DNA of 64,000 bases. Source: a virus. The notes beneath the pieces were generated by a model. The model saw only the letters and a program-made list of their open reading frames with translations. It did not search any database and was not told the origin of the DNA. Position numbers and translations under genes: made by a program. The stretch lies in the IMG/VR virus record IMGVR_UViG_3300031521_000024, positions 49,176 through 113,175 of that record, one strand, 5' to 3'. Each line of letters opens with the position of its first letter. The first letter of the stretch is position 1. Shown here piece by piece: positions 2,131 to 62,441 of this stretch.

Positions 2131-2931
2131 TTAAATTAAATTATAATCACTAAAAACATTTTTGAAAATTTCATAATTATTACCTACTGAGTTATTGTCA
2201 TTGATAATCGCAAATATTACTTTTTCAAAATATTTAGAATATCCTTCATTTACTAATAATTTCTTGAATATTTTAGCCATTTTTTCAGGATCATTTTTGA
2301 AAACTCCACATCCGAATGAGCCTAAAATTATAATATCAACATCATTTTTAATTGCAAGTGATAACATCAATCTTATTTTTTCCTTAGTAAGTTGTTCATA
2401 ATCCCAATTTGATATTGTTATTCCATCAGAATTTATTGATGATATATTTTCACTTGTTATTGTATCAGAATGACTATTAATATCAACATTTCTAAGATTT
2501 AATGCTGCAATAGTTACAACATCAGATTGAACGTCATTCATATAATTATAATATACATCCTTGAAAAATGTGGCATCTTTAGTGTATAATGCGTTATCAT
2601 CATTCAATGGATAATTATCAGTATTAATTAAATGAATCAAATTTGAGCATCTAAATAAGCATTCTTCCTGTGCTTTGGACCCTTTTGCAACTCCTCCACC
2701 TGGACGTTTAAATGATGCCATATTAAGAACACAAGTTTTTCCTAATTTACTATATTCTGTAACTGCAGATACACTATCAGAATTTATAACTTGTATGTTT
2801 TCATGACAAGGAATGCTAATATCTGGCATTAATCTATCATCAAATGAATGTATAGTAGTTTCTGATTTCAACATACATTCACTGTGTAATTTTGTGTCTT
2901 CAAACACTTGTATTAATTCTTCTTTATTCAT
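2131..2931 (-). CDS. poly(ADP-ribose) glycohydrolase-type macrodomain (TIGR02452-like)
   Basis: Predicted to hydrolyse ADP-ribose links. The microbial PARG signature is clear: NMASFKRPGGG (Gly triplet at 78-80) followed after seven residues by QEE at 88-90, then C-x(3)-C. The C-terminal half has a macrodomain-like strand (IIILGSFGCGVFKNDP) typical of this family. The length of 266 aa matches bacterial PARG-like proteins. A likely role is removal of ADP-ribose put on DNA or proteins by host defence toxins, or recycling together with the Nudix enzyme at 29.3 kb; both are inference. It sits 10 bases upstream of the HD gene, in one operon. Confidence 0.88.
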   Translation of the reverse strand: MNKEELIQVFEDTKLHSECMLKSETTIHSFDDRLMPDISIPCHENIQVINSDSVSAVTEYSKLGKTCVLNMASFKRPGGGVAKGSKAQEECLFRCSNLIHLINTDNYPLNDDNALYTKDATFFKDVYYNYMNDVQSDVVTIAALNLRNVDINSHSDTITSENISSINSDGITISNWDYEQLTKEKIRLMLSLAIKNDVDIIILGSFGCGVFKNDPEKMAKIFKKLLVNEGYSKYFEKVIFAIINDNNSVGNNYEIFKNVFSDYNLI

Positions 2932-49139: not shown

Positions 49140-49399
49140 AAATTAAAAAATTTAATGGGGTAAAAGATAAATATTTATATGTATCTCCATTTACTGAAGA
49201 AGGTATTTATTATATTTGTAATGAATGCTATAGTAATAAATTAAGAATGATAAAAAAAGGAGGATTTCAAACTCCAAGTTACGAGTGTGATAATTGTGGT
49301 TCGACTGTTTATGCCCCAATGAATCTAACTCCTAATAGATACAAAGAATATCTAATAGATAAAATAATTAGGAATAAAACAAAAAAATTCAACATATAA
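49136..49399 (+). CDS. A-tag family protein with zinc ribbon (87 aa)
   Basis: N-terminus MKIKKFNGV, C-tag TKKFNI. C-N-E-C near residue 28 and C-D-N-C near residue 52 form a zinc ribbon. Shows the same tags on a metal-binding cargo domain. Confidence 0.84.
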   Translation: MKIKKFNGVKDKYLYVSPFTEEGIYYICNECYSNKLRMIKKGGFQTPSYECDNCGSTVYAPMNLTPNRYKEYLIDKIIRNKTKKFNI

Positions 49400-61663: not shown

Positions 61664-61942
61664 ATGAAGCATATCAAGATTTATGAATATTTTAAAGATA
61701 ATATAGAAATAGATAACTATGATTTGGCACTTGAATTAGAATTCAAATTTAGAACATCTAATCAAGAAGATAAGAAAAATAAAAGCATCTTTGATGTTTT
61801 AAATGAATTAGGTATTCAGAAAGGAGATTTAACTGGAGTAGATTTAGGAAAAATTCTACAACTTCAAATGAAATTCAAAAAACAATCTGATGAAGAATTC
61901 TTAAAAATGTACAATGAACACAAAAAAAACTCTGAAATTTAA
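61664..61942 (+). CDS. small protein with N-tag only (92 aa)
   Basis: N-tag MKHIKIYE; ends KKNSEI with no C-tag. Helical (DVLNELGIQKGDLTGVDLGK). TTTTTTATATATAAAAG lies upstream. The stop falls inside the terminator stem, so the C-tag could have been lost by terminator insertion. Confidence 0.74.
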   Translation: MKHIKIYEYFKDNIEIDNYDLALELEFKFRTSNQEDKKNKSIFDVLNELGIQKGDLTGVDLGKILQLQMKFKKQSDEEFLKMYNEHKKNSEI

Positions 61943-61958
61943 ATTTCAGAGTTTTTTT
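61925..61958. terminator. bidirectional intrinsic terminator
   Basis: AAAAACTCTGAAATTT pairs with AAATTTCAGAGTTTTT, between the rightward gene at 61664 and the leftward tRNA cluster, so it can end both transcripts. Confidence 0.88.
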
Positions 61959-61961
61959 ATG

Positions 61962-62033
61962 TTCTCACACCAGGAATCGGACCTGGATTATTTGTTCCAA
62001 AAACAAATGTAATAGCCTTTATACCATATGAGA
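61962..62033 (-). tRNA. tRNA-Gln (anticodon UUG)
   Basis: Read on the minus strand: acceptor TCTCATA with TGTGAGA (one G-U), D-stem GTA/TAC with a GG-containing loop, anticodon stem TTTGT/ACAAA around loop TTTTGGA, variable region of four bases, T-arm CCAGG-TCCGATT-CCTGG, discriminator A. CCA is not encoded. U1 fits glutamine tRNAs. Fourth and last of the cluster in transcription order. Confidence 0.85.
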
Positions 62034-62041
62034 ATGTATTG

Positions 62042-62112
62042 TTGTTCATGAAAGGATCAAACTTTCTCTCCAAAATCCAAATTTTTGTGTGCTATCTTTA
62101 CACCAATGAACA
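62042..62112 (-). tRNA. tRNA-Gln (anticodon UUG), second copy
   Basis: Minus strand: acceptor TGTTCAT with ATGAACA (7 perfect pairs), D-stem GTG/CAC, anticodon stem CAAAA/TTTTG around ATTTGGA, T-arm GAAAG-TTTGATC-CTTTC, discriminator A, no encoded CCA. The D-loop (TAAAGATAG) lacks the usual GG pair, so tertiary contacts may be weak. Eight bases from the previous tRNA. Confidence 0.82.
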
Positions 62113-62302: not shown

Positions 62303-62329
62303 CAAAAAATCCAACTTAAAAAGTTGGGC
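62303..62329 (-). terminator. intrinsic terminator (segment 4:5) before the tRNAs
   Basis: Minus strand CCAACTT-TTT-AAGTTGG followed by ATTTTTTG. It lies directly upstream of the first tRNA in the same direction, so it would cut off the tRNAs unless disabled. Confidence 0.75.
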
Positions 62330-62330
62330 A

Positions 62331-62361
62331 TAAAAAAACCCAAACCATTTCAGGATTGGGT
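62331..62361 (-). terminator. intrinsic terminator (segment 2:3) before the tRNAs
   Basis: Minus strand ACCCAA ... TTGGGT with a loop of about eleven bases, followed by seven or more T residues. Confidence 0.75.
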
Positions 62362-62387
62362 AAAAAGTAAACATGATTCTAACCCAA

Positions 62388-62441
62388 TCAAACGTAAGTT
62401 TGTTGTTGTTGCTGAATCATATTTAAAATATTGTTGTTCAT
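62388..62441 (-). CDS. putative glutamine-rich leader peptide (17 aa)
   Basis: ATG at 62441, TGA at 62390-62388; reads MNNNILNMIQQQQQTYV. It holds five consecutive Gln codons (CAG then four CAA) and four Asn codons, directly upstream of four tRNAs with Gln anticodons. The second ATG (codon 8) could also serve. The stop abuts the first pairing segment of the attenuator. Far too short for a folded protein; best explained as a sensor of charged tRNA-Gln. Confidence 0.6.
   Translation of the reverse strand: MNNNILNMIQQQQQTYV

Follow-up and report, generated by a model that had tools for sequence, protein, structure and literature searches.

A predicted ribosome-mediated attenuator before a phage tRNA-Gln array, and leaders matching other tRNA arrays of giant phages

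Leader frame, pairing segments and tRNA genes in the window

The window, which is the whole stretch of 64,000 nucleotides analyzed here (IMG/VR record IMGVR_UViG_3300031521_000024, positions 49,176 to 113,175), carries on its minus strand a short leader frame, a chain of complementary segments and an array of tRNA genes with glutamine anticodons. These features are listed in the direction of transcription, with the basis for each.

62388..62441, minus: leader ORF MNNNILNMIQQQQQTYV* (17 codons); frame kept in three haplotype groups of relatives, divergent form MKNLSNMVQQQQM in L065
62400..62414, minus: putative sensor, Gln codons CAG CAA CAA CAA CAA; invariant among near relatives
62398..62405, minus: region 1, CAACAAAC, pairing with GTTTG-A-TTG around the stop codon; predicted anti-antiterminator; 8 pairs kept, 2 compensatory changes
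62382..62389, minus: region 2 (segment 1), GATTGGGT, overlapping the leader stop; invariant
62354..62361, minus: region 3 (segment 2), ACCCAATC; predicted antiterminator with region 2 and terminator with region 4; folding, alignment of relatives
62332..62346, minus: region 4 (segment 3), GGTTTGGGT and T-run; predicted intrinsic terminator 1; folding, alignment of relatives
62304..62327, minus: second terminator hairpin (segments 4:5) and T-run; terminator scan, one compensatory pair in the L007 group, absent in L065
62222..62293, minus: divergent tRNA-Gln-like gene 1, anticodon CTG; read by eye, without an ARAGORN or Rfam call in the window; counterpart called tRNA-Gln(ttg) by ARAGORN in L005/L006
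62122..62207, minus: tRNA 2, anticodon TTG, class II (long variable arm); ARAGORN and Rfam
62042..62112, minus: tRNA 3, anticodon TTG; Rfam, anticodon read from the sequence
61961..62033, minus: tRNA 4, anticodon TTG; ARAGORN and Rfam
61923..61958, minus: terminator ending the tRNA array; terminator scan

The initial annotation of this DNA had described a 17-codon frame whose glutamine run leads up to the first of five pairing segments, and this was confirmed: the frame starts with ATG at 62441, its five Gln codons occupy 62414-62400, and its TGA (62390-62388) overlaps segment 1 (62389-62382). The segment chain is also present as described, with GGTTTGGGT at 62346-62338 followed by T7 and with segments 4 and 5 forming a hairpin at 62327-62311 followed by A-T6. 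Folding of the 139-nt segment gives -36.1 kcal/mol vs -21.1 kcal/mol in shuffles (z -4.7, 0/200). Five terminator-like sites were found vs 0.4 expected, and both hairpins that had been read as terminators with T-runs are among them. The locus combines a short ORF, complete with start and stop codons and lying shortly before a terminator, a terminator and an antiterminator that exclude each other, and a leader enriched in codons of the amino acid carried by the putatively regulated tRNAs.

The five-segment anatomy stood, but it had overlooked a trp-like hairpin of regions 1 and 2: the two final Gln codons, together with the first part of the Thr codon, pair with GUUUG-A-UUG around the stop codon. 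All eight pairs of this helix are kept in four sequences, and its two compensatory changes occur in the divergent relative L065. An outer helix of the minimum-energy fold is not conserved and was set aside. No Shine-Dalgarno sequence was found before the leader ORF in the window.

The array begins ten bases after the attenuator, and its anticodons, in order, are CTG, TTG, TTG and TTG. The earlier count of four Gln-anticodon genes thus holds, with a divergent first member that ARAGORN accepts only in the relatives L005/L006; in the window itself ARAGORN calls two tRNAs and Rfam three. In every near relative the second gene is better conserved than the other tRNAs of the array. It joins the Gln anticodon to a class II, tRNA-Leu-like body, and its charging identity is putative.

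Relatives of the locus and leaders before other tRNA arrays

Conservation of the leader frame and of the pairing segments in relatives had been proposed as a test capable of refuting the attenuation hypothesis, and its result favors the hypothesis. The leader is kept in 11 IMG/VR contigs that contain the upstream 67-aa gene; these fall into three haplotype groups, the first two with four Gln tRNAs each and the third with two. Within the leader frame, substitutions lie mostly at third codon positions (AAC/AAT, ATT/ATC), the exception being Leu/Ser at codon 6, whereas among near relatives tRNAs are gained, lost and altered in anticodon, which makes the leader the steadiest part of the locus. The suggested check on the Gln run gave a similar picture, the Gln codons being unchanged in near relatives and represented by QQQQ in L065. 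Covariation across segments 1-5 was found in part: the second terminator (4:5), present in the three near-relative groups and absent from L065, has one compensatory change, but R2:R3 and R3:R4, the core helices, show no sequence changes in the family to which the window belongs and give no covariation signal, so that they neither strengthen nor weaken the model there.

A search blind to tRNAs, using the leader-core pattern CAACAACAA...TTGGGT...ACCCAA in IMG/VR, returned 84 loci. Apart from unrelated hits, none of which has a tRNA within 900 nt, these comprised the known relatives and one new phage, L065, which has the same switch before three Gln tRNAs and a neighboring 246-aa protein with 41% identity. 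The three-segment pattern had one other hit, L107, which matches by chance inside coding sequence. L014-L016, which are distant homologues of the upstream 67-aa protein, were rejected, having no tRNA array. Distant blastn of the region in INPHARED gave no match. A second Gln-run leader, MRTTTQFQQQQINRTD, was found at 6-nt stringency before Gln tRNAs in G010.

On protein similarity, the window phage is probably related to huge phages of 462-735 kb, those above 634 kb forming the Mahaphage clade. Its gp32-like protein shares 42-47% identity with proteins of LR756504, LR756502, LR745206 and LR756501, and one further shared protein has 26% identity. The window's record (113 kb) is likely a fragment; no terminase of family PF17289 was found in the fragments. 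Genomes above 634 kb were assigned to the Mahaphage clade, with Bacteroidetes hosts, by Al-Shayeb et al. 2020 (PMC7162821), who reported up to 67 tRNAs per huge-phage genome. The genomes and arrays considered below are the same ones; in the main text of that paper the words attenuation and leader are absent and control of the arrays is not described.

Leaders before other arrays were sought in the tRNA regions of these genomes with a fixed rule blind to amino acids, consisting of an intrinsic terminator, a short ORF upstream of it, antiterminator complementarity of at least 7 nt and a tRNA within 900 nt. An earlier rule was looser and slightly different, and a relaxed rule accepted 5-6 nt of complementarity. 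Most tRNA arrays checked in the huge phages and in Prevotella phage Lak-C1 have a leader naming amino acids of the tRNAs that follow; for some arrays and single tRNAs no leader was detected. The initial annotation presented the locus in the window as a single case; this phage group has at least 33 leader-array pairs that are not identical, the window locus among them. Examples of leaders, each followed by its array, are given below; the fixed rule also finds leaders in LR756500 and Lak-C1.

MNNINNIYSIYRNCNINYNMEEICIDMINDYINDDENNVGRTG (G002/G005, other clusters): Tyr, Asp, Glu, Asn, Met, Cys, Ile
MRNYCYILEMLISNLNFVQICDYRNININDEDTMRTG (G002/G005, other clusters): Glu, Tyr, Asp, Cys, Met, Ile, Asn
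MKTIAMIIRMRIIRPKMLG (giant phage): Arg Ile Met
MNNILHINLLNSLCLLGIKLIG (giant phage): five Leu tRNAs
MLFNSNISVKFTPAPAVAFRRGTGTGTGT... (giant phage): Arg Thr Val Ala Gly Pro
MKTVNTNIAIVEIAVIGGAEEGV... (giant phage): Glu Ala Ile Val Gly Glu
SKHSKHFSSSSKWF (MLQTSKHSKHFSSSSKWF...) (giant phage): Trp His His Phe Lys Ser Lys
MKAMILSLCLSLSLSLQKLG... (added by the relaxed rule, 5-6 nt): Leu Leu Ser Cys Ser Ser Leu Leu
MKAISVHIIHIWEHLLEEV... (added by the relaxed rule, 5-6 nt): His Glu Val Trp Leu

Pattern searches extended this set. The switch of the G002/G005 leaders, used as a pattern, retrieved nine contigs whose leaders belong to this type. A pattern built from the leader start only retrieved seven contigs, all with leaders of the same type and six with a matching array; in the seventh, L168, the available sequence ends just past the leader, and the same leader in LR756504 precedes Asp, then Tyr Tyr Gln. 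These seven overlap in part, as L167 and L168 repeat LR756504 leaders and L169 and L170 share one leader. For the leader EARGYEAYEAGY / MRTIVNISIEARGYEAYEAGYRLP the array was predicted before the sequence was retrieved: Glu, Ala, Gly and Tyr were expected and Tyr Gly Ala Gly Ala was found, so that the prediction was largely confirmed, the Glu tRNA being the one not found in that array. In bacterial and archaeal genomes the leader-start pattern gave eight hits, none with a tRNA nearby.

In the first Mahaphage set, 5 of 22 hits of the rule do not precede tRNAs: one before ileS, two homologous ones upstream of a gene group, and two apparently spurious. The first is an Ile-rich leader with attenuator, MNFNTIIIIRYSIPWSIPIG, in LR745206 (L131:40399-40459), upstream of a phage isoleucyl-tRNA synthetase gene (L131:40548-42755) whose product matches the ileS equivalog model at 674 bits vs a cut-off of 621. 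The homologous leaders are MKTLHTYKNVIDWM and MRALHTYKITIDLG (L129:5658-5700; L131:3585-3627), and the gene group that follows in L129 contains two genes of the RNA ligase family and a partial gene similar to that of histidyl-tRNA synthetase. The control phages T5, XacN1 and phage G yielded no credible leader; the one phage G hit before tRNAs was discarded as spurious, its antiterminator being poly-T. In Synechococcus phage S-PM2 a short ORF, MSNISKQIEIIMESDCRYWHIAQS..., and a terminator (L154:1368-1470) precede a 14-tRNA array. This ambiguous case may represent a cyanophage leader of similar kind, and its match is weak evidence because the array covers most amino acids.

Leader-array matching, ribosome geometry and the proposed mechanism

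The correspondence between leaders and arrays was assessed by permutation. Across 24 pairs the summed excess of matched residues was 167 vs 0 +/- 15.9 when permuted (0/200,000). Five of these pairs came from the looser rule, including L130, where the terminator call was spurious and the true terminator was read by eye; with the five removed, the remaining 19 rule-only pairs gave 0/100,000. The pooled rule set of 33 pairs scored 221.7 vs 0.1 +/- 19.0 (0/100,000), with the qualification that pooled pairs are not fully independent because arrays are homologous across related genomes. Permutation within genomes answers this in part: four genomes were tested separately, and in every one no other pairing scores as well as the true one (1/120, 1/720, 1/120 and 1/24). 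Complete coverage of the amino acids of the array is reached by 31 of the 33 leaders vs a shuffled mean of 9.5 and maximum of 17, the other two leaders omitting some tRNA of their own array.

These results bear on a simpler reading, in which the short frame arose as a chance ORF and the hairpins serve only to end transcription or to insulate the tRNA array from the gene upstream of it. Compact phage genomes often hold tandem terminators, and the leader is short and lacks a Shine-Dalgarno sequence. A chance ORF would nevertheless have to account for the amino-acid match over 33 pairs, for a leader better conserved than the tRNAs it precedes, and for antiterminator complementarity near the stop codon in loci that otherwise share no sequence, and we regard this explanation as very improbable.

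A second alternative is that the leader senses the general speed of translation during infection and that the codon match only tunes the response. Polyvalent leaders, which name up to eight or more amino acids, are in keeping with such a role, as is the modeled tendency of most leaders to be on by default without a ribosome. Leaders for one or two amino acids (Gln, Leu, Lys, Arg/Ser), each matched specifically to its own array, argue for sensing of particular amino acids instead, and so do the codon sets that differ among the arrays of a single genome, where the observed pairing is the unique best. Sensing of translation speed is accordingly unlikely as the main function, if better placed than a chance ORF.

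Ribosome movement was represented in a geometric folding model, in which a ribosome was placed at each codon with 12 nt hidden beyond the A-site codon (an assumed footprint) and the readout was whether region 3 is already paired upstream before region 4 is made. In nearly every leader the antiterminator is predicted to be favored with the ribosome on the matched codons and to collapse just after them. Matched residues make up 240 of 327 (73%) of the last ten codons before the modeled switch vs 96 of 339 (28%) after it (p = 4e-32). In the model, a stall at the cognate codons frees region 2 and completion of the leader hides it. With no ribosome present, Gln leaders in the family of the window are predicted to be off (antiterminator 0.02-0.04), while most polyvalent leaders are predicted to be on (about 0.6-1.0; exceptions 0.11, 0.32 and 0.44). 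A region 1:2 hairpin that would impose termination without translation is accordingly a modeled property of the Gln leaders and not of most polyvalent ones. Most other leaders have no region 1 and would be on unless a ribosome passes the sensor; such a default-on state suits a sensor of many amino acids, since a stall at any one of them leaves the switch open.

The dependence of the modeled switch position on ribosome geometry also speaks against direct sensing of uncharged tRNA in the manner of a T-box. A T-box would share both the input (tRNA charging) and the kind of output (terminator/antiterminator), which is what recommends it. The window, however, has no match at the Rfam gathering score to the T-box, with its stem I, specifier loop and T-box bulge, and the cognate triplets are in frame, repeated and placed inside an ORF with start and stop. 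This is the least probable of the explanations considered.

We therefore read 62441-62303 (minus) as a probable ribosome-mediated transcription attenuator controlling the phage tRNA-Gln array, one of a set of leaders that name the amino acids of each array, and put the probability of this reading at about 90%, from sequence comparison and folding models. Leader-peptide attenuation, as the initial annotation had proposed it, draws support from the anatomy, from conservation and from the way the design recurs, with different amino acids, before other arrays. The reading presumes that the leader is translated, that termination and read-through occur in vivo and that they respond to charging. When charged tRNA-Gln is plentiful, the ribosome would reach the stop codon and cover region 2, the terminators would form and the array would be off. 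When it is scarce, the ribosome would stall on the Gln run and cover region 1, region 2 would pair with region 3, and read-through would yield more Gln tRNA. With no ribosome on the leader, region 1:2 would form and the array would again be off. Attenuation of this kind would presuppose coupling of transcription and translation in these phages and their hosts.

The likely use of such control is to supply tRNAs when the host pool is short or destroyed, and the presence of matched leaders before most arrays checked suggests that these phages make tRNAs on demand. A broader proposal, which we hold tentatively and at somewhat under even odds, is that in giant phages of Bacteroidota each array is held at a silent or low level until its cognate charged tRNAs run short and only then released, through switches that are specific to particular amino acids, extend genome-wide and also precede ileS, and that would replace host tRNAs, for instance after cleavage by antiphage nucleases. 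The RNA ligase genes near one array are compatible with a tRNA-replacement purpose, without proving it.

Relation to known regulation and other observations

Ribosome-mediated attenuation is itself a classical mechanism, familiar from the amino-acid operons trp, his, leu, thr, ilv and pheA. The phage loci resemble these in their leader peptides with cognate codons, their mutually exclusive antiterminator and terminator, a stop codon over region 2 and, in the Gln case, a region 1:2 hairpin. They differ in that the system belongs to phages, that the predicted output consists of tRNA genes rather than biosynthetic enzymes, with one leader per tRNA array, and that leaders may name eight or more amino acids, most of them having no region 1 and being default-on in the model. 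Leader attenuators are also known for pheST and other aminoacyl-tRNA synthetase genes, which likewise control the supply of charged tRNA and have a counterpart in the Ile-rich leader before ileS in LR745206; unlike these, the main targets in phages would be the tRNAs themselves. T-box riboswitches also sense tRNA charging and act on a terminator, but they bind tRNA directly and have no leader peptide.

The initial annotation was aware of no earlier account of a phage tRNA array under such control, in agreement with our searches: no description of ribosome-mediated attenuation of phage tRNA genes was found in the literature searched, most subscription papers and preprints lying outside that search. 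What is new here is the target class (tRNA arrays), the setting (giant phages) and the matching of leaders to whole sets of amino acids. It has long been asked why phages carry tRNA genes by the dozen. Where leaders spell out the content of an array, their codons hint directly at the signal to which that array may respond, which makes the question testable. Such leaders also offer a route from sequence to function in uncultured giant phages, and candidate natural sensors of several amino acids at once.

Several further features of these phages were observed. In two of them an ORF with a conserved in-frame TAG (...LLDHK-TAG-VQTWNNQY...; L115:473-793 and L111, about 610-930) lies immediately before a tRNA whose anticodon, CTA, is that of an amber suppressor; translated with Gln at TAG, this ORF had no Pfam match. 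In three phages (L108:840-1020, L110 and L112) a conserved stretch of ~180 nt, GAGACACTTAACGATTTATCATTTACG..., lies upstream of a class II tRNA and is possibly a structured RNA. Near-identical tRNA-like copies at about 835-905 and 2748-2818 of L113 flank a ~1.9 kb stretch of genes (G003/G004). In the window, positions 2131-2931 (minus) encode a microbial PARG-like protein (PF10021).
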